Below, one piece after another: positions 26,306 to 43,322 of a DNA stretch of 64,000 nt. The DNA comes from Frigoribacterium faeni. Its GTDB lineage: Bacteria; Actinomycetota; Actinomycetes; Actinomycetales; Microbacteriaceae. Location: NCBI RefSeq assembly GCF_011761235.1, contig NZ_JAAOYW010000002.1, positions 1-64,000 of the forward strand. Reading direction: 5' to 3'. The translations under genes and the position numbers were made by a program. Under the pieces are notes generated by a model. It was not told the DNA's origin. It saw only the letters and a program-made list of their open reading frames with translations, and searched no databases. The first letter of the stretch is position 1; each line of letters begins with the position of its first letter.

Positions 26306-26395
26306 GCTGTGGCTGTTGTGGTTGCTCCGTCACGGGACGGATCAGGCTCTGGTGTGGCTGCTGTGGCTGTTCCGTCACGGGACGGATCAGGCCCC
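26306..26395. repeat. 45-bp tandem duplication at the 3' end of the ABC ATPase gene
   Basis: Two direct copies (~26306-26350 and ~26351-26395) sharing TCCGTCACGGGACGGATC. Each holds a CCGTC-ACGG-GACGG hairpin. The second copy contains the ATPase stop codon, so the duplication added a second stop/hairpin between the ATPase and the binding-protein gene. Confidence 0.75.
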
Positions 26396-27277
26396 GCTGG
26401 TGAGGGTCGGTGTGACCGTGTTCCCCGCGTGGAGGCGGTGGACACCGAGGCCCTCGAGCAGCTCCTGGCGGAGGGCGGCGAGCTCGGGGTCGTCGCGGTC
26501 TCGACGGCGGGTGCCGGGGACCGTGACGATGCGCTGGATGCTGGTGGCGCCTCCTTCGCTGTCGGCGCTCGCCGGGTCGGGCTGCTGGCTGAGGTCGGCG
26601 AGGAGGACGATGCGGTCGGCGAGGTAGAGGGCCTCGTCGACGTCGTGGGTGACGAGGACGACCGTGGTGGGGAGGGCGTCGTGGACGTCGAGGAGCAGAT
26701 CCTGCATGCGGAGGCGGGTGAGGGCGTCGAGGGCGCCGAACGGCTCGTCGAGGAGGAGGACCGCGGGCTGGCGGGCGAGGGCCCGGGCGAGGCTGGCGCG
26801 CTGGGCCATGCCGCCGCTGACCTCGCGAGGGCGGCGGGCTCCGGCGGGGCCGAGGTGGACGAGGTCGAGCAGCTCGGTGAGGCGGGCGGTGCGCTCGGGC
26901 TTCGTGAGCTTGGGGGAGGTAGCCGTGCTGGTCTTGGAGTCCTGCCTGCTCGGCTTCGGGAGGCCGAGGGCGACGTTGTCGCGGAGGGTGCGCCAGGGGA
27001 GGAGGCGCGGCTCCTGGAAGGCGACGGCGCAGCGCTGGTCGGCGTGGCGGGCGGGTTCGTCGCCGATCCGGACGGTGCCGGTGTCGGGCTGGTCGAGTCC
27101 GCCGAGCTGGCGGAGCAGCGTCGACTTGCCGCACCCGCTCGGCCCGAGCACGGCGACGATCTCGCCGGCGGCCACGTCGAGGTCCACCCCGTGCAGCACA
27201 GGCCGGTCGAACCGCCGGCCCACACCGCGCAGGGTCAACGGCAGAGCGCGGGAGGCGGTCGTCGAGGAGGCGGGCAT
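26387..27277 (-). CDS. ABC transporter ATP-binding protein, nitrate/sulfonate/taurine type
   Basis: 296 residues from the ATG. Walker A GPSGCGKST, Q-loop FQEPRLLPWRTL, signature VSGGMAQRASLARAL, Walker B AVLLLDEPFGALDALTR and H-loop VTHDVDEAL. FQEPRLLPW is characteristic of SsuB/TauB/NrtD. It has a ~20-residue insert (PSRQDSKTSTATSPKLTKPE) and an extended C-terminus. It is first gene of the ABC operon on the minus strand; the 189 bases up to the tRNA should hold its promoter. Confidence 0.92.
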   Translation of the reverse strand: MPASSTTASRALPLTLRGVGRRFDRPVLHGVDLDVAAGEIVAVLGPSGCGKSTLLRQLGGLDQPDTGTVRIGDEPARHADQRCAVAFQEPRLLPWRTLRDNVALGLPKPSRQDSKTSTATSPKLTKPERTARLTELLDLVHLGPAGARRPREVSGGMAQRASLARALARQPAVLLLDEPFGALDALTRLRMQDLLLDVHDALPTTVVLVTHDVDEALYLADRIVLLADLSQQPDPASADSEGGATSIQRIVTVPGTRRRDRDDPELAALRQELLEGLGVHRLHAGNTVTPTLTSGA

Positions 27278-27466
27278 GTCCCGACGGTAGGGCGGGGTGG
27301 CAGGTGCTGTCGCGTGAGGTGTAACCCGGCGCAACAGAGGTGGGTCAGGCTCTCCGTGTGTCCGATCGGCACGGGTGTACGCCGAGGCGTCACGCGTCCG
27401 CTATGCTTTTCGAGTTGCCTCGGTCGGGGCAACACCAAGAGGTCGGTTGCCCAGCAACGGATTTCT

Positions 27467-27543
<77 letters not shown>

Positions 27544-27545
27544 TC

Positions 27546-27576: not shown

Positions 27577-27589
27577 ACAACGAAGTGAA

Positions 27590-27613: not shown

Positions 27614-27641
27614 CTCACCTCGTCGGTCACGGCCCCCGGGC

Positions 27642-28058: not shown

Positions 28059-28095
28059 TCAGGCAAGACAGCTTGATCCTCAGCCGGGCAGCGGC

Positions 28096-28209
28096 CAGGC
28101 AGGACTCGGAGACACCGAAGTCCTTCGCGACCTGCCGCCCCGACGTCTCGGCCTTCCGAGCGACCGCGATCACGTTACGGCGGAACTCTTCCGGGTACGC
28201 CTTCTTCAT
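28096..28209 (-). mobile_element. IS3-family transposase OrfA remnant (5' end)
   Basis: MKKAYPEEFRRNVIAVARKA followed by VAKDFGVSESCL is the helix-turn-helix N-terminus of an IS3-family OrfA (transposase_8 type). After the Cys-Leu the sequence no longer matches the family and runs into the fragment described next to it. Only ~38 residues remain, with no OrfB, so this is a dead element. Confidence 0.75.
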
Positions 28210-28392
28210 GGCGCGCACCCGTTTAACAGGAGCCCTTGCTCCTACCCGTCAGGAGTCAACCAAACCTGCAGCAGTCCCGAGCGATGTCGTACGACTCTCC
28301 CTGCGATGGAACCCTTAGGCTGCTAGCTGAGGATAGGTCCGGTGTGGCCGGGCTGCGCTCGAGACACGCTTTCTCGACACGGAGGTCATTCG

Positions 28393-31140
28393 ATGCCAAC
28401 GATTGAAGGACAGGTGCGTGCCGCCAGCGAGGGCATCGAGCGCAACATCTCATTGATCAGCTCGGATCGCGGATTCCTGTCGAAGAACGTGCTGCAGTAC
28501 CTCCGCGACCTCGTCGAGGCGTTGACTGTATGGGCGCACACCGGCGATCCTGCACAACCCTTCATTTACCAGACGCAGTTCGAGCCAGCTCGCGACTTCG
28601 CGAAGTCGCAAGCGAACTACCGGCCACTGACACGGTTCCACGCCATGCTGCAGGTCAGTGTGTCGCACTTCACACTCGACGAGGATCCGTCCGAGCGCCT
28701 GATGCTGAAGTACTACGAGTTCCTGCTCCGTATTCGCCAAATCGCTAAGGACAGCCTGGGCATCGAGGTCCTGCGAAACCTCGAGAGCTTCCCCCTCGAC
28801 CTCGATCCGCTGCTGCGCGAGTACCACGCAAAAATCGCGACCCGGATCGAGGAGCCGGGTCATATTTCGCCGGGCAGCCCACGTCGCGACCGGTACTACG
28901 TCATCAGCTCCCGACCGTTCTACGCGAACGGGCGGATCTACTACGAGGTCACTTTCGCTCCAGCGCACAACCGAACGAGCAAATTCGACCGCATCATCGG
29001 CTTCACCAGCATCGACGTGTCGGACTCCTACGCCGCGAACATGGAACTGCAGAGCAGTTCGATCGACGTCTTCGGCCAGCCGATGCCCATCGTCCTGATC
29101 CGGTCGTGGGAGGTGTCGATCCGTCCCTGCGAGTTCAACAACTTCGCCCGCTTGTTTGGCCAGCAGACCAAGGTGAGCGCCGGGCAGCTCGAGTACCGAA
29201 ACCTGATGCTCTACCTCACGACAATGAAGTACAATTTGCTCGACCTCATCGACATGCCCGACGCAGAGTTCACGCACATTCGGACGAGGGCTACGGACGG
29301 CATCAAGCGAACCGACGAGATCTTCACCATGCTCCAGGGCTCGCGCGACATCATTCGCCGGGACTTGCCAGGCTCACGGATTTTGCGCTACCTGCTGCTC
29401 ACCATGAACAACAACGTGGTGCGGGCGCAGTACCAGCGCGACCGCTGCGGATGGCTGTCAAACCTAAACATCACGCCAATGTCCAGGCCATTCGACACCA
29501 TGCCCTTCTGCACGTACCCGCGGCGCCACACTCCGCGCTTCTTCGACCTGGCGACGGCGATCGGCAGCAATGGGCGCGAGCATGAGTTCCTGGCGCGGCG
29601 CGTCATGAACAACGTTGAGCAGCACGGAGTCATCTACACACCCGACGCGGAACTCGAGGACCTGGGCGACCTGGACCAGCTGGTTGCGACCTACAACCGG
29701 CTACTGCCGCCCACGGACAAGCACAAGCCGCGCATCATGGCTCACGACAAGGGACACGTCTTTATCACCGGGTACGAGAACGACTCGGTCACGATCATCA
29801 ACGATCTTCAGGCCATCGCCGCAAGCGGCCTCGGCGACCACGAGACGGACGCGAAGGCATGGCTCGATGCCAACCAATTCGCGATCGATGACGATCTGAA
29901 AGCCCATGCCCTCACCCGGCTGTTCGCCGAGTCCAAAGTCGCCCTCATCTACGGCGCCGCCGGCACCGGCAAGACTCGAATGGTCGAGCACATCGCGTCG
30001 TACTCCGATGGATCTCGCCAACTCTTCCTCGCCAAGACGAACACCGCCGTTGACAACCTTCGGAGCCGAATCGCGACCAGCGACGCCAACTTCAGCACCA
30101 TCGACAGCCACCTCGGGTCGGGGTCGACAGGCGCGCTGCACTACGACCTGCTCGTTATCGACGAGTGCAGCACTGTCGGCAACAATGAACTGCTCAAGGT
30201 GCTCGACCAGACATCGTTCGACCTTTTGGTGCTGGTCGGAGACGTTTACCAGATTGAATCCATCGAGTTCGGCAACTGGTTCCGAACCATCCGCGCCTAC
30301 ATCCCGCCGGGCTCGGTATTCGAGCTCACCGAGCCGTACCGCACGAAGGACAACGCGCTCCTGACGCTCTGGAACCGCGTCCGCACCCTTGACGACAAGA
30401 TCGAGGAGTCCATCTCCGGGAGCGACTACGCTGGTCCACTCGACGCGTCTCTCTTCACTCGTGCTGACCCGGACGAGATCGTGCTGTGCCTGAACTACGA
30501 CGGCCTTTACGGCATCAACAACGTCAACCGCTTCATGCAGACGAGCAACCCGGCGCCCGCCGTGGCGTGGGGCGACTCGACCTTCAAAGTCGGCGACCCA
30601 GTGCTCTTCAACGAGACGGACCGCTTCCGTCCGGTCATCTTCAACAACATGAAGGGCGCGATCGCCAAGATCGACCGCACACCGGGCCAGATCACCTTCG
30701 ACGTCGACATCAAGCGCGCCGTCACGCAGGCTGACCTGTGGGGAACCGACCTGCGATGGGTGTCGGACAGCGTCGTCCAGTTCGATGTTTTCGAGCGCGC
30801 GAACACCGACGACGATGATGACTCCGCGACGACCGTGCTTCCGCTCCAGATCGCGTACGCGGTCTCGATCCACCGCGCGCAGGGATTGGAGTTCTCTAGC
30901 GTCAAGGTCGTCATCACCGACGCCAACGAGAAGCGCATCTCGCACAGCACCTTCTACACAGCCATCACGCGCGCCCGTAAGCATCTCAAGATTTACTGGA
31001 CCCCCGAGACGCAAAAACGAATCCTCAGCCGCCTGAGCGTTGATGAGAACACGAAGGACGAAATGCTGCTGCGTGCGAGGCGGGGTGTGGCGCCTATCAC
31101 TAAAAGGCCGCCGATGCGTAACTCACGACAAGCGCCATAA
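28393..31140 (+). CDS. RecD-like SF1 helicase with ~500-residue uncharacterised N-terminus
   Basis: 915 residues, GGAGGT six bases before the ATG. The last ~400 residues are an SF1B (RecD/Pif1-like) helicase: Walker A GAAGTGKT (521-528), motif Ia FLAKTNTAVDNLR, Walker B LLVIDECS (Asp590, Glu591), motif III LVLVGDVYQIESI, LTEPYRT, and the C-terminal VSIHRAQGLEFSSVKVVITD and FYTAITRAR. The first ~500 residues match no domain I know; they contain YYVISSRPFYANGRIYYEVT and a Cys/His-poor alpha/beta region. Stand-alone helicases of this kind are frequent in anti-phage islands. It is convergent with the following large gene. Confidence 0.85.
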   Translation: MPTIEGQVRAASEGIERNISLISSDRGFLSKNVLQYLRDLVEALTVWAHTGDPAQPFIYQTQFEPARDFAKSQANYRPLTRFHAMLQVSVSHFTLDEDPSERLMLKYYEFLLRIRQIAKDSLGIEVLRNLESFPLDLDPLLREYHAKIATRIEEPGHISPGSPRRDRYYVISSRPFYANGRIYYEVTFAPAHNRTSKFDRIIGFTSIDVSDSYAANMELQSSSIDVFGQPMPIVLIRSWEVSIRPCEFNNFARLFGQQTKVSAGQLEYRNLMLYLTTMKYNLLDLIDMPDAEFTHIRTRATDGIKRTDEIFTMLQGSRDIIRRDLPGSRILRYLLLTMNNNVVRAQYQRDRCGWLSNLNITPMSRPFDTMPFCTYPRRHTPRFFDLATAIGSNGREHEFLARRVMNNVEQHGVIYTPDAELEDLGDLDQLVATYNRLLPPTDKHKPRIMAHDKGHVFITGYENDSVTIINDLQAIAASGLGDHETDAKAWLDANQFAIDDDLKAHALTRLFAESKVALIYGAAGTGKTRMVEHIASYSDGSRQLFLAKTNTAVDNLRSRIATSDANFSTIDSHLGSGSTGALHYDLLVIDECSTVGNNELLKVLDQTSFDLLVLVGDVYQIESIEFGNWFRTIRAYIPPGSVFELTEPYRTKDNALLTLWNRVRTLDDKIEESISGSDYAGPLDASLFTRADPDEIVLCLNYDGLYGINNVNRFMQTSNPAPAVAWGDSTFKVGDPVLFNETDRFRPVIFNNMKGAIAKIDRTPGQITFDVDIKRAVTQADLWGTDLRWVSDSVVQFDVFERANTDDDDDSATTVLPLQIAYAVSIHRAQGLEFSSVKVVITDANEKRISHSTFYTAITRARKHLKIYWTPETQKRILSRLSVDENTKDEMLLRARRGVAPITKRPPMRNSRQAP

Positions 31141-31178
31141 CGTGCACTCGCCGCAACATGTAATTTTGCCAACGGTTC

Positions 31179-34100
31179 TCAGTCTCTATCAGCGTCGAGA
31201 TCGGCCTGCAGGTCGTGGTAGCGAGCATCGCGTTCGTAAGACTCCGCGATAGCGCGAAGTACGCGGGCCGTGCGAGGCCATCGCGCCCGAACCACCGCGC
31301 TCCACGACAAGTACCGGCCGGCGAGGTCTCGCTCTTGGCTGCCTCCGTCGTAGGGGCCTCTGCTGGTGACGCCACGCGCCTTCGTCCGACCCATGGCAAG
31401 CCCGTTCTCCAAGTCCCGGCTACCAATCGATTCGATGACCTGCCGTACCAGTTCTGCGGGCCAAACACCGTCGTCGCCGAGGGGTGTGTGGGCCAGCGCG
31501 TGCCCGATGGCCTCGTCGCCGATGTCGCCTCGATCGCTGGCGGATAGTTGTAGCCGCGCCTCCTCGATCCATCTCTCCATAACAGCACCATTGATGCTGC
31601 CGTCGTTTCGGCGGCCGGGAAAACCCGTCCAGCTTTGCAGTACCCACCACGCTTGCGAGGCTGCGTCTTGCTTGGCTTTGTCCGAGGCCTGAAGCTCTTG
31701 GCTTTTACCTCGATACGCTTGTTGCACGAGCGTGACAAAGGTTGCTGGATCGTTGGCGAGGAAATGGTTAAGGGCGGTGGGCTCGCGAGTGTGCTCGAGC
31801 AGACGGAAGAATGCGTACTCCAGCCGCGCGACGTCAGCCTGAGCGCCAGCGAGGAAGTCAAGCAGCTCCCCGACGTAATAGCTGTCCATGTCCGACAGCT
31901 GGTCGATTGACTGCGATTGCTGCAGAGCCTCGTCGAGAACGTTAAGGATGTTCTTTGTTTCGAGCACGGGCTGGACTGAGTCCTGGTCTCGGGGGCGATT
32001 GAGGGCATGGGCCGCAACGGGGATTGCATCCCACGCGCGACCGTGGCTGATGAGCTGGTCAAGGGCAAGTGGGGTGTCCTTGCGCTCGACCACGACGACT
32101 GCCGCGTTCGTCCAGTACTCGACCTCATCGTTGATATCGGCACTCTCGTGAAGTACGTCCCAGAAAGCCTTACGGGCGGGAGCCTGTCGGACGAGGAGCG
32201 CTCGAGCCTGACCGACAATTTCGTCGCGAGCCAGGACGGAGCGAAGCCAGGTCGCATCCTGGTCAAGCATCGTCTTGTGCGCCCAGCTCGCTGCCGCTTC
32301 GCGCAGCGCCTGATCGTCAGACCCGAGCCAAGGGAGTATTTCGGTGAGCCCGACTTGCGGTTGCGAGGCCAGAGCCCACCCAAGGTGACGCGGGACCGGG
32401 GCGCGACGAGCGAGGCGTGTGAGCTGAGCGGCAGCGTCGTCCCGTTCCAAAATGCCGCTGAGCGCCTCCTTACGCCGCTGCTCAACCGCTACCTCGTGGC
32501 GCTCGAAGTCCCGCTTGTCAACGCCGGGGAGGTCGGGGTGCCAGTCGAAGAGAAAGCTGAAACGAAGTGGGTCCGAAGCTGGTTCGAAGACTGCTGCAAC
32601 GGCCTTGAGCTGAGCCAAGGTGCTGGGCGGCATAGCCCACTCGCTCGCGGCGTAGCGCTCGTGCCGAGTCGTTTCTGCGTGAAGCTTTTCCCAAACCTGC
32701 AGCCGCCCCTCTGAAGTGAGGTCTTCGATCGCCTGGCTTTCCAAGAAAGTGACGATTCGAGCTCGATCGTCCTCTGGAACTGTCGAGATGTTACCGACCA
32801 GCTCTGCAAGGCGGGCGGGCGAGCCTGCGGCAAGCCTGATGGCAGAGTCCACAAGCCGCCTCACCGTGGCGATCCAATCGGCCATCGACACTGACCGAGA
32901 ACTTGGACTCCAGTCATCACGGAAGCGGGGCGACGCCGGAGGAATGACGACTCTGTGCCTAGAAGGCCAGAGTTCGAGGAGGAGCTGCCATCCCACAGCA
33001 TGCGAGATACGTTCGACAGCGGCGATCGCCTCCAGACGCACCTCGAGCGAGGCTGCGGTGTTCTGTACCCAGCCACAGAGGACAGTAGCCAGGCTTGCGC
33101 GCGGGCGGTTGGCAGTCCTGCCCCCCGGATCAAGGACCGCGAGGTGTGCCAGCACTTGCGCGCCTTGGACGAGATGCGAGGGCGACCAGCACACCGTTTC
33201 GATTGCCCACAGCAAAGAAGGATGTGGCGACGAAGGGCCGAAGCCAGCCAGGCCGTCCTCTTCCTGAAACAGCCTCAGTACCACTGCGGACTCACTCGTG
33301 AGATCGTCCTCGAGGGCGGTCAAGAAAGCGTCTGGAGCAGCCTCGGCGAGCAGGGGGAGGACCTCAGCAAGCACCTGCCAGGTGCGGCCTGAGGCATCGG
33401 CGTTAGCGGTCTCCAGCAGGCGGCTGACAAGCGCAGCCGCGAGATCCGCCAACGAGCGGCTGCCGTCCGCGAACGTATCGACACCCATTGACCCCATGAG
33501 AGCAAACCCTCGAGCTAATCCTCGGCGCAAGACCCCGGAATGTGGGCGGCCTTCTCCATTCATCCTCGCGAGTAGACGCGCGCTCCCGTCCAGCTCGAGT
33601 ATCGAGTCCTCCAGCAGCATCACGTTGCTCACCTGCTCACCCCAGCGCTCGAACGTCGACGGAGAGATCGAGTCGCGAAGTAACAGGAATGCTTCCTCGG
33701 GTGAGACGAAGCTCCATTGAGACCCAATCTTGCGCAGGAGAGGGTCTCCTGACATGGATACTCGTTGGACGGTCTGCTCCACTTCCTGCCAGGAGCGCCC
33801 GGTCACCTGCTCGATCACGGCGAGGTCTGCGGCATTCTCGGTCCAGCTACAGATGATGGCGAGGGGCGCGAGGATCGAGGCGTCCGGCTGCTCGGCCCAG
33901 TGAGGGCGACGAATCCTTGGGTCGCGTGAGAGGTATCGCACGAGGGCTGGCATGCTTCGTCGACCGAGGACGGCGAGCCGATCCGCCCTGTCGAATGGGA
34001 CTATCGCCTCCCGGAACGCTTCGGCAGCCGCGAGCCGTTCGAGGCGAGGCAGTGGGAGGTCGACTGCCCGCCGAGTCACGGTGGATCCTTCGACGACGAT

Positions 34101-35165
34101 GATTACGTGGTGGCCGCGGTTGATGGCGGTGTCGAGACTGGGACCCTCGAAGAGAGGAACCAGAACCGACCGGCCGGGCTGCTCGACGACACGGTCCCAT
34201 ACCTCTGCTGACCGGATGATCAAGAGCGCCGGTGCGAGTTCCCCCGCCGAGCCAAACTGAGTTTGCAGGGCTGCGTGGACGAAGCCAATCACGTCCTGAT
34301 CCCACTCGGACTGGACCACCGTTAGCTGCGCCGGGGCCGACAATCGCTGCTTCAGCTTCTCGGCTTCGGTGAGTCGGCCAGCCAGGAAGAGCGTGATTGG
34401 TAACGCGGGATCAGTTGACGCCTTGAGACTGCCCCACCATGCGTCGACCGTTTGCGCGTCGCGCGGCCGCAACCCGAGATGCTCCGAAATCCAGTGGTGG
34501 GCGGCCGGGGACGCCTGCAGCCAGCCCTCTAGATCGTCCGCGTCGATCACGCGGACGTCGGCGAAGTAACCCTCCGCCCGACGTTCTACAGCCCAGGCAG
34601 CGCCTTCGGCCCATCGCCGGGGAGTCACGAACACGAAGGTGCTGTCCGACGTACTCTGTTCCGAGCGCTTTGCGTAATCTTCTGACGCCTTCCCCTTCGG
34701 ACTCTTGTCGACGCCGAACTCAAGTGCGAGGACACCTGACGGGATGAACGCAGAGCCGGACGACTCAGCCCTCCCGTCCCATCCGGGAAGTGCCACACCG
34801 TCGCCGGCTCGGACGGATATGTTGGAGACGCCGGGCGTCTCCGCGAGCAGGCGACGAACGAGTTCTGGGAAATGCTCCTGCGCGTCGCGTTGGCGCGCGG
34901 TTGCCCATTGACTGAGCTGACTCGCGGTGACCAACTCCGGGTTAAACATGCGACGTTCGGTCTGCAGGGAAGGTGTCGTTACTGCGCCTCGAGCTGCGAT
35001 GAGTCGTTCGACGTCCGCGAGGCGAAAGCGGTGGAAGCGAGAGCCAGGCAGGCGAGCCTCGGGGAGCTGTCCCGCCTTGACCCAGTTGCGCACGGTGTTC
35101 TCGTGCACACCAAGTCGCTTCGCCGTCTCGCGAACGTTGAGAAAGTCGTCGGAACTACCGCCCAT
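31179..35165 (-). CDS. Very large HTH protein of unknown type, candidate defence protein
   Basis: 1328 residues from ATG 35165. Residues 8-60 form an excisionase/MerR-like helix-turn-helix (LNVRETAKRLGVHENTVRNW). Residues ~95-230 carry GDGVALPGWDG, GVLALEFGVDKSPKGKA and FVFVTPRRWAEG. The order Asp130...Glu149...Lys154 could be a nuclease-like centre but spacing is not a classic PD-(D/E)XK. Residues ~250-520 look like a STAND-type regulatory core, yet no Walker A is visible. The rest (~800 residues) is helical repeat. The start is set by a -10 box six bases upstream; the frame is open ~280 bases further but without an SD. I recognise the N-terminal nuclease-like region only loosely from large defence proteins. 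Confidence 0.75.
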   Translation of the reverse strand: MGGSSDDFLNVRETAKRLGVHENTVRNWVKAGQLPEARLPGSRFHRFRLADVERLIAARGAVTTPSLQTERRMFNPELVTASQLSQWATARQRDAQEHFPELVRRLLAETPGVSNISVRAGDGVALPGWDGRAESSGSAFIPSGVLALEFGVDKSPKGKASEDYAKRSEQSTSDSTFVFVTPRRWAEGAAWAVERRAEGYFADVRVIDADDLEGWLQASPAAHHWISEHLGLRPRDAQTVDAWWGSLKASTDPALPITLFLAGRLTEAEKLKQRLSAPAQLTVVQSEWDQDVIGFVHAALQTQFGSAGELAPALLIIRSAEVWDRVVEQPGRSVLVPLFEGPSLDTAINRGHHVIIVVEGSTVTRRAVDLPLPRLERLAAAEAFREAIVPFDRADRLAVLGRRSMPALVRYLSRDPRIRRPHWAEQPDASILAPLAIICSWTENAADLAVIEQVTGRSWQEVEQTVQRVSMSGDPLLRKIGSQWSFVSPEEAFLLLRDSISPSTFERWGEQVSNVMLLEDSILELDGSARLLARMNGEGRPHSGVLRRGLARGFALMGSMGVDTFADGSRSLADLAAALVSRLLETANADASGRTWQVLAEVLPLLAEAAPDAFLTALEDDLTSESAVVLRLFQEEDGLAGFGPSSPHPSLLWAIETVCWSPSHLVQGAQVLAHLAVLDPGGRTANRPRASLATVLCGWVQNTAASLEVRLEAIAAVERISHAVGWQLLLELWPSRHRVVIPPASPRFRDDWSPSSRSVSMADWIATVRRLVDSAIRLAAGSPARLAELVGNISTVPEDDRARIVTFLESQAIEDLTSEGRLQVWEKLHAETTRHERYAASEWAMPPSTLAQLKAVAAVFEPASDPLRFSFLFDWHPDLPGVDKRDFERHEVAVEQRRKEALSGILERDDAAAQLTRLARRAPVPRHLGWALASQPQVGLTEILPWLGSDDQALREAAASWAHKTMLDQDATWLRSVLARDEIVGQARALLVRQAPARKAFWDVLHESADINDEVEYWTNAAVVVVERKDTPLALDQLISHGRAWDAIPVAAHALNRPRDQDSVQPVLETKNILNVLDEALQQSQSIDQLSDMDSYYVGELLDFLAGAQADVARLEYAFFRLLEHTREPTALNHFLANDPATFVTLVQQAYRGKSQELQASDKAKQDAASQAWWVLQSWTGFPGRRNDGSINGAVMERWIEEARLQLSASDRGDIGDEAIGHALAHTPLGDDGVWPAELVRQVIESIGSRDLENGLAMGRTKARGVTSRGPYDGGSQERDLAGRYLSWSAVVRARWPRTARVLRAIAESYERDARYHDLQADLDADRD

Positions 35166-35199
35166 GACGCGACAGTACCAGTTTGTGGACTTTGTGGAC
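35166..35199 (-). promoter_or_regulatory. Leaderless promoter with tandem 9-bp operator
   Basis: Read on the minus strand, TACTGT lies six bases before the ATG at 35165, giving a leaderless message. On the plus strand TTTGTGGAC is repeated exactly head to tail at 35182-35190 and 35191-35199, covering the -35/spacer region. Direct repeats are the usual target of excisionase-type HTH domains, so the encoded protein may repress itself. Confidence 0.55.
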
Positions 35200-35709
35200 T
35201 CCCGAAGTGGCCCCTTTCCACGACCACTGAGCAGAACCACCAGCTGCCGTTGGCCCGGAGTCATCTCGGCGCGGGCAGCTTTGTTGCGTCTGATGCTGAG
35301 TGGAAGGGGGTAGTTGTCGCAAGCCTTGCCCCGTCGGGTGGCGCTAGTCGGGTCTGACACCTGTCCTTCGCGGAGGTGCTCCACTTCCGATGCCTGACGC
35401 CGATGGTAGGCGTCGCGGAAGACCTCGCCGGAGAAACGCCTGATCAAGAGGTGATGCTCGAGGGGGCGCCACCGTCAGGGGATAGGCGACGGCTCGTCGG
35501 AGAATAGGGCGCGCTGCGGCAGCGCCGCGATCCTCGCCACTGCGGGCTTTGGGGAGTTCTTGAGACAGCCCACCATCTGCCTCGCCGGATCAATCCATTC
35601 GGCGAGGCTCATTCTCTCTGAACGAGCACTCTCTCGTCGCCTCCGTCAGGACAGAACGGCGAGGTGTTGCTGTCGGCTGATGTGGTGTGCCTACCCAAGC
35701 TTGCATCAG
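35200..35709. other. Intergenic stretch without a recognisable gene
   Basis: About 510 bases between the promoter of the 1328-residue gene and the stop of the SRA-like nuclease gene. Two hairpins are visible: GCGCTG-cgg-CAGCGC at 35511-35525, and a 9-bp stem GCCTCGCCG/CGGCGAGGC at 35579-35608. The second lies ~100 bases past the nuclease stop and may terminate it. No coding sequence with a sensible start and composition was found. Confidence 0.6.
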
Positions 35710-36657
35710 CTACGAGGCCTCGATGAGCCATCGAAATCCAGTGCCAGCCCCCACTACGCAGCCGAAGCCGATGCTCCTGAGCATGTCGACCAGATCCGGA
35801 GCCGGTTCATCCGGGAGGAGCAGTGCACATCGCAGGCTGACGACGCCGAGGTTGTGTCTGTAGTCGTGCAGCTGACCGATCGCCATCCTCACGTCGTTCC
35901 GACTTGCTGAAGCTTTGGCCTCGAAGAGGGTGTTGTCATCGTCCGTGTAGTAGTCCGTGAGCAGGGCCGCCCCGCTGTCGATGGGTATGGCCCACCTGTT
36001 GGCTGACCTGCCCTGCATCGCAAGCCAGGAATTGAACATGCTGGTCAGTTCTGCCTCGCGTCGGCGCGTAGTTGCGGCTTCCGAGGCGCGCCGTGCGGAG
36101 ACGTACGTGCGATCCACTTCGAGGGGGACCTGAAATGGCGCTTTGGGCTCGGTTGCTGGCTGGGAACGAGGAACACGGACCGGAGCCGTCCCGGAGCTGA
36201 GTCGCTCGAGGTGAAAGACGATGACCGTCCTGTCCTGACCTCGGCTGTCAACTGCCCGGGCATAGTGGAACGGCCCACGATCATCCTGCCGGACTCGATA
36301 TTCCCCAACGTATTCCTGTTGTTTCCTGCCCGACCCGGGGAGAGTGCCTGCGGCGACGAACAGCTGCAGTCGCTTGTTTTCCTCAGCATGGTTGACGAGA
36401 GTCCGATTGCCGCGGAGAAATTCTTGATCCCCCACTTGGCCCGCGCCGGTGTAGTCGAAGCCTTCGCCTGCGTCTGTGACCCCGTCATGTTGGGCGTAAC
36501 CGAAATGCGCACCTTCTGTAATGTCGGACAACACCATGACGTAATCGCTCGTCCTCGACGGCACTATTCCGCCCGTATAAACGCTTCCGCCATACCGGGC
36601 GGATAACGCGGCACGTGTGGTCATGTCACCAGGTTGCAGATCCCACGAAGTCTCCAT
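35710..36657 (-). CDS. Modification-dependent (type IV-like) restriction endonuclease: SRA-like + PD-(D/E)XK
   Basis: 315 residues from ATG 36657 (a TTG four codons earlier is possible). Residues ~15-150 resemble the SRA-like base-flipping domain of ScoMcrA-type enzymes: RYGGSVYTGGI, FGYAQHDG, GQVGDQEFLRGNRTLVNH, YVGEYRV. The C-terminal ~110 residues hold TDDDNTLFEAKAS, with Asp239-241, Glu246 and Lys248 as a PD-(D/E)XK centre, followed by IGQLHDYRHNL. Such enzymes recognise modified cytosine in foreign DNA and cut nearby. Transcribed away from the MazG operon across a 152-base gap. Confidence 0.78.
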   Translation of the reverse strand: METSWDLQPGDMTTRAALSARYGGSVYTGGIVPSRTSDYVMVLSDITEGAHFGYAQHDGVTDAGEGFDYTGAGQVGDQEFLRGNRTLVNHAEENKRLQLFVAAGTLPGSGRKQQEYVGEYRVRQDDRGPFHYARAVDSRGQDRTVIVFHLERLSSGTAPVRVPRSQPATEPKAPFQVPLEVDRTYVSARRASEAATTRRREAELTSMFNSWLAMQGRSANRWAIPIDSGAALLTDYYTDDDNTLFEAKASASRNDVRMAIGQLHDYRHNLGVVSLRCALLLPDEPAPDLVDMLRSIGFGCVVGAGTGFRWLIEAS

Positions 36658-36809
36658 GAAGCGATGCAAGTGCTCGCCGAACGTAAAGGTGTTGCGCGAA
36701 ACGGGTGGTTCGAGGGTGTCATTGGGGTGTAAGAGACTAAGGCAAGGGTGTGTCGGCGACTTACCGCCAGCATCGATTGCGCTTTCGCTGCGCTGATACA
36801 GTCGTCGGC

Positions 36810-37130
36810 ATGACCAAGGGTTCGCCGGTGGATGCGGTCAAGGGCGTCGTTGCAGACCGCGAGTGGGGGCAGTTCCATTCGGAGGAGAACTTGGCGAAGA
36901 GCGTCGCCATCGAGGCCGGCGAGTTGCTGCAGTGCTTCCAGTGGGGAACCGACTTCGATCCCTCCAAGGTCCAAGATGAGCTCGCCGATGTACTGACCTA
37001 CTGTCTCCTCTTGGCTGACAAGCTTGGTGTGGACCCGGAGCAAATAGTCCTGCAGAAGCTCGCCGTCACTCGTGAGAAATATCCCGTGGACAAGGCCCGC
37101 GGCCGGAGCGAGAGATACGATGCCCTCTGA
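36810..37130 (+). CDS. MazG-like nucleotide pyrophosphohydrolase
   Basis: 106 residues. The all-alpha NTP pyrophosphatase fold is clear from FHSEENLAKSVAIEAGELLQ (Glu35, Glu38 of the metal site) and VQDELADVLTYCLLLADKLG (Glu57, Asp60). It should hydrolyse (d)NTPs or alarmone-like nucleotides to monophosphates. An extended -10 (TGATACAGT, 36794-36802) lies seven bases before the ATG, so the message appears leaderless. The end overlaps the GIY-YIG/DUF2075 gene by 11 bases, so both are made together. Confidence 0.88.
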   Translation: MTKGSPVDAVKGVVADREWGQFHSEENLAKSVAIEAGELLQCFQWGTDFDPSKVQDELADVLTYCLLLADKLGVDPEQIVLQKLAVTREKYPVDKARGRSERYDAL

Positions 37131-38895
37131 CATCGTCAGGGTTCCCTTCGAGCGGGATGCGCTGGACGTCTGGGCACTCACCGATGCGCGTAACGTCGAT
37201 TGGCCAGTTGTCTACGTTCTCGATCAGTCCAAACCTGAGGGCACGGGCGAGCCACGGCATGGACGTCCCAGGGATGTCTACGTTGGGGAAACCCGCAATG
37301 CTGCGGGCCGAATGCGCCAGCATCTCGCCAACCCCGATAAGGGCCAACTCGACACAGTTCGGGTCGTCGTCAATGAGACCTTCAACAAGTCGGCGTGTCT
37401 AGATCTCGAGTCGCGGCTCATCCAACTGCTGTCAGCAGATGGGGCTTACAGCGTTCTCAACCGCAACGACGGCATCACCTCGGCCAACTACTACGACCGT
37501 GAGCGATACCGGGACGTGTTCGCGGATGTCGTGCAGCAGCTCCTCGCCGAGGGCGTGTTCACGCGTCCGATCCCCGAGATCGAGAACAGCGACCTCTTCA
37601 AACTGTCGCCGTTCAAGGCGCTGACGCAAGACCAGGCCGCGGCTCTCGAGGACATCTTGGAAGGGCTGTTCGCCGACCTACGTGACGAGCGTGGCGACAC
37701 CATCGTCATTCAGGGACACCCGGGCACCGGCAAGACCGTCGTCGCCATCTACCTGCTCAAGCTGCTCGTCGATATCGGCTCCGCGCCTCCTTCGGACGAC
37801 TTCGACAGGGACTCGCTCTTCGCGGACTTCTTCCTTGGGGAGCACCCGGCTCTGCTCGCAGACCTGCGAGTCGGCATCGTCGTGCCTCAGCAATCGCTCC
37901 GTGAGTCCATCAAGCGAGTGTTCCGCAAGACGCCTGGGCTCGACGCGGCCATGGTGTTGACGCCGTTCGAGGTAGGGCAGGCGGATGGTGAATGGGACTT
38001 GCTTCTCGTCGATGAGGCGCATCGGCTAAACCAACGGGCGAACCAGTCGACGGGCGTGCTGAACGCGAAGTTCCCGATCATCAACAGGCGCCTCTTCGGG
38101 ACCGACGACCTCGCGAAGACGCAGCTCGACTGGATTCGCGCGAAGAGCCGCCACCAGATCCTCTTGCTCGACGAGGCACAGAGCGTGAGGCCGGCCGATC
38201 TGTCAAAGGAGTCAGTCGTCGAACTCCTCGAGGCTGCTCAGGCCCGTGACCGGCGATACCGGCTCTCGACGCAGATGCGGGTCCAGGCAGGGGCTGACTA
38301 TGTCGCCTACGTCCGAGACGTTTTACGCGTGCCTCGTGCGGGCCGTGTCGCAGGCAGCGTTCTGCCGCAGAGGTTCAAGGGCTACGACCTTCGGGTCTTC
38401 ACCGATCTATCGGAGATGCACGCGGAAATCCGAGCGCGGGATGCTGAGCACGGTCTTGCCCGACTTGTCGCCGGTTACGCCTGGAAGTGGGCTTCACGCA
38501 AAGATTCCGGAGCGGCCGACATCGAGCTCGATGGTGTCGCGCTTCAGTGGAACAGGGCCTCGAAGGACTGGATCGCGTCGCAGGGAGCCTTGGAGCAAGT
38601 CGGCTCGATCCATACGGTGCAGGGATACGACCTCAACTACGCGGGTGTAGTCATCGGCGGGGATCTGCGCTACGACGTTGATCGTGACGAGCTCTTCGTC
38701 GATCGTGCCTCGTACTTCGACACCAAGGGTGCCGAGAACAACAAGCAGCTGGGGCGGTCGTACTCCGACACCGAGCTGCGCGAGTTCATCAGCAACATCT
38801 ACGGGGTGCTGCTGACTCGGGGCATCCGTGGGACGTACATCTATGCAGTGGACCCCGGCATGCGGGCCTACATCGAGAGGTACTTCTCGGCATGA
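37120..38895 (+). CDS. GIY-YIG nuclease fused to DUF2075 SF1-type helicase
   Basis: 591 residues. Residues ~28-118 are a GIY-YIG nuclease: VYVL (31-34), DVYVGETRNAAGRMRQHL (Tyr54, Arg64), Glu97 in DLESRL and Asn114 in VLNRND. Residues ~185-591 are a DUF2075-type helicase: Walker A GHPGTGKT (199-206), Walker B LLLVDEAHRL (Asp298, Glu299), a second LLLDEAQSVRP, RLSTQMR and GSIHTVQGYDLNYAGVVIG. The combination suggests an ATP-driven DNA nuclease. It overlaps the MazG-like gene upstream (11 bases) and a GIY-YIG gene downstream (ATGA), forming a tight three-gene operon. Confidence 0.88.
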   Translation: MPSDIVRVPFERDALDVWALTDARNVDWPVVYVLDQSKPEGTGEPRHGRPRDVYVGETRNAAGRMRQHLANPDKGQLDTVRVVVNETFNKSACLDLESRLIQLLSADGAYSVLNRNDGITSANYYDRERYRDVFADVVQQLLAEGVFTRPIPEIENSDLFKLSPFKALTQDQAAALEDILEGLFADLRDERGDTIVIQGHPGTGKTVVAIYLLKLLVDIGSAPPSDDFDRDSLFADFFLGEHPALLADLRVGIVVPQQSLRESIKRVFRKTPGLDAAMVLTPFEVGQADGEWDLLLVDEAHRLNQRANQSTGVLNAKFPIINRRLFGTDDLAKTQLDWIRAKSRHQILLLDEAQSVRPADLSKESVVELLEAAQARDRRYRLSTQMRVQAGADYVAYVRDVLRVPRAGRVAGSVLPQRFKGYDLRVFTDLSEMHAEIRARDAEHGLARLVAGYAWKWASRKDSGAADIELDGVALQWNRASKDWIASQGALEQVGSIHTVQGYDLNYAGVVIGGDLRYDVDRDELFVDRASYFDTKGAENNKQLGRSYSDTELREFISNIYGVLLTRGIRGTYIYAVDPGMRAYIERYFSA

Positions 38896-39530
38896 CGTCC
38901 ACGTTGGTGACACCGCAGGAACTCGCCGTCCCCGGGCGGGCAATGTGCAAGTACGTTCGGACACCCCACGCTGGCGGGCATGTCGACTACGAGCGATGGC
39001 GGCTCGACGACGTGCGAGCAGACTCCGCCCGTTCGTATTTCGCGTCCGGTTCGGTCTCCCCTCCGATGGACGGTCTCGCGGAGTTGCCGTCCTGGTCACA
39101 CTCTTTCGACGTCGCGACAATGGCCCCGACCGTGCCAGGCGCGTACATGTTCCGCTCGCGGGCGACGAGCAAGGTCGTCTATGTCGGCATGGCAGGCGAA
39201 CATAGTGGCGCAGGTCTGCGGGGAAAGACTTGACATCTACCTGCGCGGTCGGGGAGCCGTGTCCTGCTTCGCAGAGGCTGCACTCGGTCGTGCTCTGTCG
39301 GACGTGACGCGGGTGACTAGTCGGTTAGGGCTGCTCACGAACTTGGAAGGCACCAAAACGAGAGAGTGTGCGAAGGCTGCCATAGAGCGGCAGACGTCGA
39401 GGTCCGGTGGGCAACGACAGTCGATGCGGTCTCGGCCCGAGCGCAGGAGGCACGCGTGCTGAGGTCTTTTTACGGCTCGCAATTGTGGAACAGGCAGCGA
39501 CCCAAGAACACGGACTCCGGAAAGTCGTGA
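38892..39530 (+). pseudogene. GIY-YIG domain protein with two compensating frameshifts
   Basis: ATG in an ATGA overlap with the DUF2075 gene. Frame 1 gives 113 residues with GAYMF (83-87) and VVYVGMAG (95-102), then stops at 39231-39233 just after AGLRGK. The homologous continuation (ERLDIYLRGRGAVSCFAEAALGR...) lies in the next frame, consistent with one extra G in the GGGG run at ~39220. Near 39388 the coding sense returns to the first frame (ADVEVRWATTVDAVSARAQE...) and ends at TGA 39528-39530. A full protein would be ~212 residues. The gene is either broken, carries two sequencing errors, or is recoded. Confidence 0.7.
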
Positions 39531-39564
39531 TCTGGTCGTTGTTTCACCTGAACGGAGAAGCTTT

Positions 39565-40239
39565 GTGATCCCACGTCGGATGAAGGATCCCCATTATCGA
39601 CAGAGTCAGCTTCAGGCCGTTGATGACGAGCACATGGCCCCGGTCTCGGACTTGGTCAGGCGCCTCAGCGCCGAGCGCCCTGAGCTAGAAGGCGTGCCCT
39701 GGGTCGCTCCGCACTACGATCCACGCGTTGCACGCATTCTGTCGTTGTCCTCCAACCCAGGTCCAGGTGCTGGCGGGAGCACAGGGAGCGGGATGCTGTC
39801 GGCGGAGAACGACGACGCGTCTGCCGAACGGATGTTGAAGGTCTACACAGCCGCCGGGATAGATTCCGAGAACGTCGTGCCGTGGAACGCCTTTCCCTGG
39901 TTCGTGCACGCTCAGCTTCCCGATGGCCTGACCCGCGACCACCTCGAGCAAGGTGTGCTCGTCCTCCGACGATTTTTGGAGCTCTGCCCAAACGTCGTGT
40001 CGATCGTCGCCCACGGTAGTGACGCTCACCGTTCTGCGCAGTTACTTCGATCGATCCGCTTGGTAGGGCCTTTCGTTCGTGAGCGCGGTATCCACACCTG
40101 GGATGCGCGGCATACGAGCAACCGTGCTTTCATCCTGCCTCGCCAGCAGCGGGAGGACGCATTCGACGACACGGTGGAGACGTACCGCCAGGCGATGGTG
40201 CATGCGGGGCTGAAACCGAACGAGCCTTCCGCGACCTGA
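39565..40239 (+). CDS. Uracil-DNA glycosylase superfamily protein
   Basis: 224 residues; GTG start with GGAGAAG upstream. The UDG fold motifs are present in divergent form: LSSNPGPGAGGSTGSG (Asn64-Pro67, replacing the water-activating loop), VVPWNAFPW (107-112) and HTSNR (183-187), the counterpart of the HPS leucine-loop motif. It probably recognises a damaged or modified base in DNA. No iron-sulfur cysteine set is visible. Low-GC codon use and position place it in the island. Confidence 0.75.
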   Translation: MIPRRMKDPHYRQSQLQAVDDEHMAPVSDLVRRLSAERPELEGVPWVAPHYDPRVARILSLSSNPGPGAGGSTGSGMLSAENDDASAERMLKVYTAAGIDSENVVPWNAFPWFVHAQLPDGLTRDHLEQGVLVLRRFLELCPNVVSIVAHGSDAHRSAQLLRSIRLVGPFVRERGIHTWDARHTSNRAFILPRQQREDAFDDTVETYRQAMVHAGLKPNEPSAT

Positions 40240-40348
40240 GCGCAACGATGCAGTGAGACGCTGCTCGAAAGGGGGGTGGCAGGTGCACCTGTGGTCGATG
40301 AGGATCACTCGCGGGCCGAAATGCGGCTGAGGGTGCAGGGGGCCACGA

Positions 40349-40966
40349 ATGAACGAGGAACGACGCTCGACCGCCACGGCAAAGTTGACAAGGGGAGCGG
40401 TCGCGATCTCGGTATCGGTCGTCCTTGCTTTCAGCCTGTCTGCTTGCGGTGCCTCATCCGAGAACACCGCCGCACCCGCCGGCCTCGCTGCCATCGAGCC
40501 ATCCGCGGCACCGACACCGGTCATTTCGATCAAACGAGAGGACGTCACTGAGGTGCTTCCCTTCGATGCCGTGACTGTCGACGACCCGACCAGGGATATC
40601 GGCCAAGACGCGATCAGCGTGACGGGACAGGACGGGTCCAAGGTGCTCACGTATGAGGTCACCTATACGGACGGAGTCGAGAGCGGGCGGGTCGTCGTGG
40701 CTGAGAACGTCGTGGCCGCCCCCGTCCAACAAGTCACCAGCATCGGCACGCGTCAGCCCTACGTGGCCCCGGCGCCTGTCGCCGCCTCGGCGGTCGGCGG
40801 GTGCGACTCCAACTACGCAGGTGCATGCGTCCCCGTGGCCTCGGACGTGGACTGCGCCGGCGGCAGCGGCAACGGGCCCGCGTACGTCCAGGGTCCCGTC
40901 ACCATCGTCGGCAGTGATGTCTACGATCTCGACCGCGACGGGGACGGCGTCGCTTGCGATCGGTGA
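40349..40966 (+). CDS. Lipoprotein with G5 and excalibur calcium-binding domains
   Basis: 205 residues, AGGGGG upstream of ATG. Signal peptide with lipobox SLSAC (Cys 33). Residues ~60-125 fit a G5 domain (VTEVLPFDAVTVDDPT, LTYEVTYTDGVESGRVV). The C-terminus is an excalibur motif: DCAGGSG...VYDLDRDGDGVACD, a Ca-binding D-x-D-x-D-G loop with two Cys. Extracellular, probably binding cell-wall polymers. Codon use is closer to the core genome than the island. Confidence 0.85.
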   Translation: MNEERRSTATAKLTRGAVAISVSVVLAFSLSACGASSENTAAPAGLAAIEPSAAPTPVISIKREDVTEVLPFDAVTVDDPTRDIGQDAISVTGQDGSKVLTYEVTYTDGVESGRVVVAENVVAAPVQQVTSIGTRQPYVAPAPVAASAVGGCDSNYAGACVPVASDVDCAGGSGNGPAYVQGPVTIVGSDVYDLDRDGDGVACDR

Positions 40967-41156
40967 GGCCGGCTCCGGATCAGCCCACGGTGCCGCCCTG
41001 GACTCCAATTCTTGCTCGCATGCGGCGTGAGCATCGACGCTGACGCGCTGCAATTAGACGTGCCTGGCGTGCTCGATGGGCCCGGCCGTATCGCCCCAAA
41101 CGGGGGCTCGAATCCGCGTCGTGACTCCTCATAGCGTGACAACGAGGGGGAACGAC

Positions 41157-41999
41157 ATGAGCGACACCGTGCCACGCGGCAGCGCGGCCTTGACCCTGCG
41201 GGCGCGTCGACCCGCCTACTCGGTCATGCAGGAATGCCTCCGACTCCAGGCCGCGGCACCCGGCCTGACCCGTCGCCAGCGTCTCCTCGGCCGCTCGCCC
41301 CTGAGGCCCGACGCCGTCAGCTGGTACAAGGGCGCCCTGGGCGAGATAGAGGTGGCCCGCGTACTCAGCGACCTCGGACCAGACTGGACCGTCCTGCACT
41401 CCGTACCGGTCGGATCGGGCGCGTCCGACATCGACCACGTGCTCATCGGCCCGACCGGCGTGTTCACCATCAACACCAAGAACCACGCCGAGGCGAAGGT
41501 CTGGGTCGGCGGCGGGACCATCATGGTCAACGGTCACCGCACTTCCTACGCTCGCGCCTCGGTCTTCGAAGCGCAGCGCGCCTCTCGTCTCGTGTCCGCA
41601 GCCGCGGGGGCTGAGGTGGCCGTCGTGCCGGTGATCGTCGTCGTCGGTGCGGCGTCGCTGCGCTTCGGCGACAAGACGCCGACGGTCCGCGTCGTCACGG
41701 CCTCACAACTGCGACGGTGGCTCTTCTCCCTGCCCCGCATGCATTCCGAAGAAGCCCTGGCTTACCTGACGCTGGTCGCCGAAGAGCGAGCCACCTGGCA
41801 CACCCAAGCGCTGGTGCTGACCGACACCCTCCGCCATGAACACCGCTTTGAGCGCCTGCGCCGCGACATCGACGACGCCGCGCGGCGTCGCCGGCAGTGG
41901 CGGGTCGGTACGGCCCTCGGTGCAGTGGCGGCATCCGGGGGTGTCTTGCTCGCGGTCCTCGCAGGCGTCGCCAGCGCCGTCTTGGCATCCATCGGCTGA
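41157..41999 (+). CDS. NERD domain protein with C-terminal membrane anchor
   Basis: 280 residues with GAGGGGG before the ATG. The NERD (nuclease-related) domain is at ~50-160: GALGEIEVARVLSDLGPDW, then SDIDHVLIGPTGVFTINTKNH, where Asp and Lys match the nuclease-like pattern. One C-terminal TM helix (~250-278). NERD proteins are suspected DNA-processing enzymes of unknown role. It flanks the island and could belong to it or to the core. Confidence 0.85.
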   Translation: MSDTVPRGSAALTLRARRPAYSVMQECLRLQAAAPGLTRRQRLLGRSPLRPDAVSWYKGALGEIEVARVLSDLGPDWTVLHSVPVGSGASDIDHVLIGPTGVFTINTKNHAEAKVWVGGGTIMVNGHRTSYARASVFEAQRASRLVSAAAGAEVAVVPVIVVVGAASLRFGDKTPTVRVVTASQLRRWLFSLPRMHSEEALAYLTLVAEERATWHTQALVLTDTLRHEHRFERLRRDIDDAARRRRQWRVGTALGAVAASGGVLLAVLAGVASAVLASIG

Positions 42000-42011
42000 C
42001 CCGCCCCCGCC

Positions 42012-43322
42012 TCACTCGTACCGCAGCGACGCCACCGGGTCCGCCTTGGCCGCGCGGGCCGCGGGCAGCGTGCCCGCCACGAACGCCACCGCCATCACCA
42101 CGACGACGATCAGCGCGATCGCGGCCGGGTCGAACGCGATCAGGGTCAGCCCGGGCAGGCCCGACAGCAGCGACCCGGCCAGCGAGGCGCTCACCACGCT
42201 GCCCACGCCGATCGCCAGCCCCGCCCCGATCGCACTGCCGAGGAACCCGATGAACGCCGCCTCGAGGCTGAACAGCGCGAACACCCGACCGCTGCCCATG
42301 CCCATCGCCTTCATCAGGCCGATCTCGCGCGTCCGCTCCTGCACCGACATGAGCAGCGTGTTCACGATGCCGAAGCTCGCGGCCAGCAGCGCGATCACCG
42401 CGAACGCGTTCAGCACCAGCACGATGCCGTCGATCACCGTCTTGATCGTGCCCAGCTGATCGGCCACGGTCGTCCCCGTGAAGCCGGCGGCCGTGAGCCG
42501 ATCCTTCAGCTCGTCGACCTGCACGTCGCTCGCGTCGTCGGCGAACCGCACGCTCGCCTCCGCGTACCGGTCGACCTGGTCGGCCGGCACCCCGACGTTC
42601 TGCGTGTCGAACAGGGTCGTGCTCAGCGCCGCGTTCGGCACGATCGCCGCACCGGCGGGCGACGCGAGGCTCTCCTCGGCGACCCCGACCACCGTCGCGG
42701 TCACGGTGTGCTGCGCCCGCGTCGCGTCGGTCACCGCGATGGTGACGGGCTGGCCGACCGCGTCGGCGTCGTCCGCGAAGCCCAGGGGCGCCACGTAGGA
42801 GGTGGGGATCACCACTTCGAGACCGGTCGCGTCGTCGTCCGGCTGCGCCCCCTCCGTCACGGCCACCTGCTGCCCGGACACCAGGCCGCCGACGGTCGCC
42901 ACGTACTTCGTGCCGCTCGCGCCCTCGACGTAGTCCGGCGTGATCGACTCGACGGGCTGGACGGCGAGGACTCCCTCGATCGTGCCCAGCGCCTCCAGGT
43001 CCTCGGGGGTGAGCGCGACGACCGTCGCGCCGGGCGCACCGGGGCCGGTCGACGCGATGCGGTCGGGGTCGTACTCGGCGGGCCCCGAGTCGGCGGCGCC
43101 GAGCCCGGTCGAGTCCTCGACGGTCTTCGACACGGTCATCGTGTCCGTCGAGCCGACCGCGGCGACCGTGTCGTCGAGGTACTGGTTGATGCCGGTGCCC
43201 AGCCCGCTCGTCAGGGTGAGCGTGAACGCCCCCACGACGATGGCCAGGACGGTGAGGACCGAGCGCGTCCTCGACCGGAAGGTGTTCGCCACCGCGGTCG
43301 TCAGCAGGTCGACGGTCGTCAT
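42012..43322 (-). CDS. ABC transporter permease, MacB/FtsX type
   Basis: 436 residues. First TM helix at ~20-42 (VLTVLAIVVGAFTLTLTSGL), a ~260-residue extracytoplasmic domain, then three TM helices (from ~305) with SVQERTREIGLMKAMGMGSG between them, the FtsX/MacB hallmark. It couples ATP hydrolysis to extrusion or mechanotransmission. Start overlaps the ATPase stop (ATGA). Confidence 0.9.
   Translation of the reverse strand: MTTVDLLTTAVANTFRSRTRSVLTVLAIVVGAFTLTLTSGLGTGINQYLDDTVAAVGSTDTMTVSKTVEDSTGLGAADSGPAEYDPDRIASTGPGAPGATVVALTPEDLEALGTIEGVLAVQPVESITPDYVEGASGTKYVATVGGLVSGQQVAVTEGAQPDDDATGLEVVIPTSYVAPLGFADDADAVGQPVTIAVTDATRAQHTVTATVVGVAEESLASPAGAAIVPNAALSTTLFDTQNVGVPADQVDRYAEASVRFADDASDVQVDELKDRLTAAGFTGTTVADQLGTIKTVIDGIVLVLNAFAVIALLAASFGIVNTLLMSVQERTREIGLMKAMGMGSGRVFALFSLEAAFIGFLGSAIGAGLAIGVGSVVSASLAGSLLSGLPGLTLIAFDPAAIALIVVVVMAVAFVAGTLPAARAAKADPVASLRYE

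Follow-up and report, generated by a model that had tools for sequence, protein, structure and literature searches.

The first 64,000 nucleotides of contig NZ_JAAOYW010000002.1 of Frigoribacterium faeni (assembly GCF_011761235.1), hereafter the window, carry two overlapping genes, one encoding a MazG-like pyrophosphatase and the other a GIY-YIG nuclease fused to a Schlafen-type helicase. These two genes form a conserved module, which is probably a horizontally spreading defence module that has not been described so far. The module and the frame that follows it are organized as below.

36810..37130, + strand: MazG-like all-alpha deoxynucleoside triphosphate (dNTP) pyrophosphatase of the DCTPP1/RS21-C6 type, 106 amino acids (aa), module core (PF12643, E 5.7e-19)
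37120..38895, + strand: GIY-YIG nuclease fused to a Schlafen-group-3 superfamily 1 (SF1) helicase, 591 aa, module core (PF09848, E 4.4e-67)
38892..39233, + strand: truncated GIY-YIG-like frame (likeness judged by eye), 113 aa, outside the module

A MazG-like enzyme paired with a nuclease-helicase

The MazG-like gene extends from an ATG at 36810 to a stop at 37130 and overlaps by 11 bases the nuclease-helicase gene, which runs from an ATG at 37120 to 38895 with an alternative start possible at an upstream GTG (37072), while the third frame, from its ATG at 38892, shares 4 bases with the end of the helicase gene. These coordinates bear out the overlaps reported in an earlier interpretation of the DNA (the sequence-only reading), which had regarded the three genes as one unit; the unit is reduced here to two. 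Searches of Pfam, PADLOC, NCBIfam and PHROGs gave no match to the third frame at E <= 0.01, coding-like sequence carries on in other reading frames (judged by eye), and a relative at E <= 1e-5 was detected in only 1 of 118 other genomes, inside a 208-aa frame. With its frames broken, no family match and a single relative, it was rejected as a working member and is probably a decayed passenger.

The identities first given to the two remaining products, a MazG-like enzyme and a GIY-YIG nuclease with a DUF2075 helicase, agree with Pfam. The helicase match to PF09848, a family now named SLFN-g3_helicase, reached 227.3 bits for a cut-off of 24 and covered positions 3-354 of 354, PF12643 was also above its cut-off and had no second match in the genome, and the GIY-YIG match was slightly under the cut-off (21.3 bits vs. 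22.6). The expected catalytic residues, which had been read as intact, are all present and conserved, including the metal ligands E35, E38, E57 and D60 of the MazG-like protein, Y32, Y54, G56, R64, H68, E97 and N114 of the GIY-YIG domain, and the Walker A motif GHPGTGKT, the DEAH box and R567 of the helicase.

In its predicted structure (predicted local distance difference test, pLDDT, 86.6), the nuclease-helicase has human SLFN11 as best Foldseek match (E 7.7e-11). It resembles the Schlafen group 3 helicases SLFN11 and SLFN14 by its PF09848 half and by a model that matches both, but differs from them in carrying a GIY-YIG nuclease and a MazG partner, and Pfam (E <= 0.01) detected no Schlafen-core (AlbA-like) RNase domain in its 591 aa. 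Dna2-like and AddAB/RecBCD enzymes, which are also among the structural matches, similarly couple an SF1 helicase to a nuclease, but they have other nuclease folds and housekeeping roles and are not known to have a MazG partner.

The solved structures nearest to the MazG-like protein are mouse and human RS21-C6, also known as dCTP (deoxycytidine triphosphate) pyrophosphatase 1 or DCTPP1 (E 1.9e-15). Section 9 of PMC4491611 lists eight DCTPP1 pocket residues for 5-methyl-dCTP and indicates that plain dCTP is hydrolysed too. Counterparts of W47, E63, E66, E95 and D98 occur in 78 of 78 MazG proteins associated with the module, those of W73 in 77 and of Y102 in 70, this collection including the window and two proteins whose genes are separated from that of the helicase by 4.8 kb (L121) and 6.3 kb (L100). 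The window protein shares seven of the eight residues with DCTPP1, from which it differs by the replacement of H38 and by the association of its gene with a nuclease-helicase. With the metal ligands and, except for H38, the cytosine pocket of a DCTPP1-like enzyme, it is predicted from its sequence to be hydrolytic.

The pairing recurs well beyond the window, in sequences that are related by descent and thus not independent in any of the counts given here. Among 199 genomes of the order, a MazG gene was found within 1.5 kb of 34 of the 36 strong helicase relatives (E <= 6e-43) and of 3 of the 10 weaker ones; reciprocally, such a helicase adjoins 32 of the 33 strong MazG matches and 5 of the 12 weak ones. 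A wider set combined 65 loci obtained by scanning named genomes with 35 relatives from the order and 8 records of plasmids or phages, and its helicases were classed by their N-terminus, the GIY class (74 loci) being defined by Y32, Y54, G56, R64 and E97. Considering loci with at least 400 bases of flank on either side, a MazG gene was present within 1.5 kb of 61 of the 69 GIY-YIG helicases, 8 of the 14 with another long N-terminus and 1 of the 14 without such a domain, the latter (L106) being a GIY-YIG gene interrupted upstream; loci set aside for their short flank were 5 of the GIY class (2 with MazG), 1 of the long class (with MazG) and 5 of the short class (3 with MazG). The MazG gene, usually upstream of the helicase gene and often overlapping or abutting it, is at times located downstream (e.g., L076 and L110), and the two genes thus stay adjacent even where their order differs. 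In 20 control regions of 20 kb, a MazG model derived from module genes had zero matches. The co-occurrence proposed as a check in the sequence-only reading is therefore found both within the order and in the wider set, where the two genes were encountered in Actinomycetota, Bacteroidota, Pseudomonadota, Saccharibacteria, Parcubacteria, Bacillota and Mycoplasmatota, as well as on one haloarchaeal plasmid. A phage origin was considered and rejected on the small number of viral relatives (2 in one viral-contig scan and 4 in phage records), and the module looks mainly cellular.

Within this framework, the ends of the helicase protein are variable. MazG is also paired with helicases having a long N-terminus other than GIY-YIG (L113, L115-L117, L119, L120, L127, L133 and L074), which resembles PD-(D/E)XK by eye (E-x-K motif, e.g., L074) and gave no Pfam match in the six proteins scanned; replacement of GIY-YIG by a PD-(D/E)XK-like nuclease within the same module is possible. 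At the other end, 18 helicase proteins of the set have a long C-terminal extension, recognized by Pfam as Peptidase_S24 in 4 of the 10 scanned, and one such extension searched against solved structures matched LexA and UmuD. By eye, Ser and Lys are found in 18 of 18 extensions, together with an A-G pair in 16 and a C-G pair in 2, at the position where LexA and UmuD are cut. These proteins are as follows.

S24-domain helicases: L084, L085, L089-L092, L094, L096-L099, L101, L104, L107, L114, L117, L122, L133

The S24 domain is carried by GIY-YIG forms of Bacteroidota and Gammaproteobacteria, by two forms with another N-terminus (L117 and L133) and by two frames with incomplete N-termini (L104 and L114); it is absent from some Bacteroidota forms (L086) and from the nuclease-helicase of the window. 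In L122, the helicase has the S24 domain without an N-terminal nuclease, and no MazG gene is found nearby.

Genomic site and defence context

The module occurs in 5 of the 16 genomes of the genus, each time on the same side of a gene common to all 16 and no more than 11 kb from it. The conserved flank of this site in the window is as follows.

26387..27334, - strand: ABC (ATP-binding cassette) ATPase gene (by eye), present in 16/16 genus genomes; clusters with 43319-44014

The variable site corresponds to positions 26387-42000 of the window; its genes between 28342 and 40239 have a GC content of 60-64%, vs. 73-74% in the flanks. Many of its genes have no relative at the same site in the other genomes of the genus, and some are shared.

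Neighbouring proteins were compared with PADLOC at E <= 1e-15, and results were counted as families (models) rather than proteins; since several models can match one protein, these figures give an enrichment and not its exact size. In random draws, 180 families were matched by 121 of the 236 neighbours of order relatives (N1) and 83 by 113 of the 146 neighbours at other, mostly more distant loci (N2), vs. only 13 by 133 of the 282 control proteins, taken from these or related genomes at places set by arbitrary offsets. Genes were called by a purpose-written script that missed short ones. The site itself is rich in such matches in genomes of the genus lacking the module: in 10 of these 11 genomes, with G006 omitted because of a contig edge, all 87 proteins called within 13 kb together matched 176 families, some of the proteins being products of genes shared between genomes and not cargo. 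Restriction and methyltransferase models are common among the neighbours of the module, and a gene of the type IV kind, encoding an SRA-PD-(D/E)XK protein, lies within 5 kb in six sources, window included, with no relative among 284 control genes. Other than MazG, no neighbour family recurs in more than 17 of the 109 sources.

This enrichment, and a neighbourhood in which no conserved housekeeping context was seen, are in line with the defence unit envisaged in the sequence-only reading as far as the MazG/nuclease-helicase pair is concerned, given its variable site and its cross-phylum pairing; the third gene has no part in it. The same data bear on a mobile DNA-repair cassette, in which the GIY-YIG nuclease and helicase would act in excision repair, MazG would clean the nucleotide pool and the LexA-like domain would respond to damage. 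Such a cassette is quite unlikely in view of the patchy presence of the module in the genus, the many unshared genes and low GC content of the site, the defence-rich neighbours and the occurrence on plasmids.

The absence of a named system with this composition, as had been suspected, is supported by PADLOC v2.0.0 and NCBIfam, no model of which covers the module. The MazG protein matches no PADLOC model, and the matches of the helicase are partial, the best one (E 7.2e-11) covering positions 428-622 of 657. The PADLOC candidates PDC-S41 and PDC-S14 are weakly and partially similar to the end of the helicase and to the GIY-YIG domain, but neither spans the nuclease-helicase fusion. The literature searched, which held few of the subscription papers and preprints, contained no publication in which DUF2075 is linked to GIY-YIG, or to both MazG and defence. 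By title, none of the COG3410/DUF2075 papers deals with defence, a description in older papers being possible. No such pair was found in the accessible parts of PMC9519451 and PMC12839542, and the words MazG, GIY-YIG, helicase, pyrophospho and Schlafen are absent from the main text of a study of actinobacterial defence (PMC10482375). In the sections available of the DefensePredictor study (PMC13092281), MazG is named as an unvalidated domain of a predicted defence system, and the DefensePredictor set may include the MazG/helicase pair described here.

A possible role in guarding the nucleotide pool

As a tentative reading, in which our confidence falls somewhat below an even chance, we propose that the nuclease-helicase cuts foreign, base-modified DNA and that MazG clears modified dCTP, thereby sparing the host. 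The helicase would load on or move along the invading DNA, which its nuclease domain would cut. Base modification would mark the DNA as foreign; the modified base would most likely be a cytosine, though not plain 5-methylcytosine (5mC), and the hypermodified cytosines of some phages are candidates. MazG would be a guard and not a weapon, converting to monophosphates the 5-modified dCTPs expected to arise from the breakdown of modified phage DNA and from nucleotide salvage. With these nucleotides kept out of host DNA, the nuclease would spare the cell that makes it. The S24 domain, which most of the Bacteroidota and Pseudomonadota forms seen have and the window protein lacks, might tie nuclease activity to RecA and DNA damage. 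Plain 5mC was rejected as a target: carriers would be expected to lack cytosine-5 methyltransferases (PF00145), which were found in 17 of 36 carriers vs. 77 of 163 other genomes (Fisher p = 1.0). Carriers are not depleted in these enzymes, so that plain 5mC is an unlikely trigger.

The proposed role of MazG has a parallel in SauUSI-type enzymes. A SauUSI-type protein encoded beside the module in Lactiplantibacillus (L070) prompted a survey of this family, which covered 10 of 20 plasmid records in addition to that of L070, and a further scan in which 30 of 34 matches gave a locus. A gene for a Nudix dNTP pyrophosphatase was found directly upstream in 10 of the 11 SauUSI-type loci (L070, L200-L203 and L251-L255; not L204), among which L201, from S. 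aureus, is presumably SauUSI itself, and L202 has a Nudix, a SauUSI-type and a MazG-like gene in a row. As in the module, a nuclease-helicase is thus directly adjoined by a small dNTP pyrophosphatase gene, with the difference that the partner is of the Nudix fold instead of the all-alpha MazG fold. SauUSI-type enzymes combine a phospholipase D (PLD) nuclease with another helicase, vs. the GIY-YIG nuclease and SLFN helicase of the module. The best match of the L070 Nudix protein is MutT; next come chains of a putative CTP pyrophosphohydrolase, of MutT2 and of E. coli NudG. PMC5389931 counts NudG among the 5-methyl-dCTP pyrophosphatases, and according to this source and PMC10742078, both the MazG-fold and Nudix families have members acting on 5-methyl-dCTP. 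PMC9146914 refers to SauUSI as a modification-dependent enzyme of type IV. MutT homologues beside SauUSI homologues appear in a figure legend of Bell et al. 2020 (PMC7641849), and the available part of that article gives no functional explanation for this neighbour.

Taken together, the MazG pairing and the SauUSI-Nudix parallel suggest one principle, in which a modification-targeting nuclease needs a pool free of the modified nucleotide. Its generalization as pool-guarded restriction is doubtful. Modification-reading nucleases would be encoded with a dedicated dNTP pyrophosphatase, with at least two independent origins, one joining MazG to GIY-YIG or other nuclease-SLFN helicases and one joining Nudix to SauUSI-type enzymes, and a LexA-like, RecA-controlled switch in one branch would serve as built-in restriction alleviation or activation. 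While defence by nuclease-helicases is already known as a kind, this principle is possibly new. If true, our reading would reveal a two-gene system of defence with a wide distribution and give self/non-self discrimination a second layer, in which the nucleotide pool is guarded against the very mark that the cell's own nuclease attacks. It would also provide a reason for the Nudix gene beside SauUSI-type enzymes and for nucleotide-hydrolysing genes in defence islands, which are unvalidated in the consulted sections of the DefensePredictor study (PMC13092281), and would link bacterial Schlafen-type helicases to DNA-targeting immunity.

Several observations weigh against the cutting of modified DNA under a MazG guard. 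By Pfam and fold matches, no modified-base reader was found in the nuclease-helicase, the linker between GIY-YIG and helicase not having been folded separately. Cytosine-5 methyltransferases are as frequent in carriers as elsewhere, also within the family (15 of 31 carriers vs. 39 of 89; p = 0.68), and seven loci have a PF00145 gene no more than 5 kb from the helicase; within the genus, the proportions lean the opposite way (1 of 5 carriers vs. 7 of 11), in too few genomes. Eight of the 69 GIY-YIG forms have no MazG gene nearby (L057, L069, L071, L072, L083, L087, L102 and L112). Pocket residue H38 is kept in none of the 78 MazGs, and both pocket tryptophans may be general to the enzyme family, the sequences compared being module MazGs alone. 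The SauUSI-type parallel is an analogy, and Nudix genes accompany the related DUF3427-type proteins in only 5 of 25 loci and in none of 5 plasmid loci; for the SRA-PD-(D/E)XK set, the figure is 1 of 13. With Nudix mostly missing from these sets, the pool-guard rule does not extend to type IV enzymes as a whole.

The lack of a recognizable reader domain and the absence of exclusion between the module and cytosine methyltransferases would also be compatible with a general DNA-degrading defence devoid of modification specificity, with MazG serving another purpose such as removing or recycling the products of degraded DNA. This scenario has a small chance of being correct, as self/non-self discrimination would require another mark, and none was found.

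The activity of the MazG partner itself can be read in other ways. That nucleotide hydrolysis limits phage, as stated in the sequence-only reading, is possible, and a house-cleaning role fits the data at least as well. Defences based on dCTP deaminases and dGTPases provide a model for nucleotide starvation, in which the nuclease-helicase would sense or damage phage DNA and MazG would deplete dCTP until phage replication stops. The hydrolysis of plain dCTP by DCTPP1 (PMC4491611, section 9), overlapping or abutting genes whose products are hence probably made together, and defence-rich neighbourhoods all speak for starvation, which we nevertheless regard as unlikely: Pfam shows neither a sensor nor a switch that would control MazG, the host should suffer from a dCTPase that is constantly active at equal dose, and the Nudix partner of SauUSI-type proteins suits house-cleaning better. 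MazG could instead attack the precursors, destroying the modified dCTPs that certain phages produce for their DNA and leaving a less modified progeny open to ordinary restriction, with the remainder cut by the nuclease-helicase. The conserved DCTPP1-like pocket residues and the common restriction and methyltransferase matches among neighbours are consistent with precursor attack, which nonetheless appears improbable since the pairing with a nuclease fused to this particular helicase is left unexplained.

Large neighbours of the module in six loci (L058, L060, L063, L064, L073 and L121) were wrongly taken for SauUSI and are of the DUF3427 type. Their identity to the L060 protein is 45-47% for L058, L063 and L073 and 39-40% for L064 and L121, and identity to the L070 SauUSI-type protein is about 30-34%. 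Among the large neighbours, only that of L070 is of the SauUSI type, and that of L118 suits neither type well.

Other genes at the site

The following genes surround the module in the window.

28342..31140, + strand: RecD-like helicase matching the PADLOC candidate defence protein PDC-S53 (E 0, 1246.6 bits) over positions 1-896 of 900
31179..35447, - strand: 1422-aa frame with an excisionase-type helix-turn-helix (HTH) near the N-terminus (HTH_17, E 6.6e-12)
35710..36669, - strand: SRA-like + PD-(D/E)XK protein, divergent from the MazG gene; SRA call from sequence profiles
39565..40239, + strand: possible uracil-DNA-glycosylase (UDG)-superfamily protein (UDG E 8e-4, below cut-off)

The N-terminal half of the SRA-like + PD-(D/E)XK protein gave a poor model (mean pLDDT 50.4, three sequences), for which Foldseek returned no match at E <= 0.001 and MspJI at E 0.05. 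The 1422-aa frame has a weak mad1-like match on the same stretch as HTH_17 and no other family match, and no relative was found in the other loci compared. The possible UDG-superfamily protein has a sole relative in the set, in L050, a locus that carries both the module and an SRA-PD-(D/E)XK gene.

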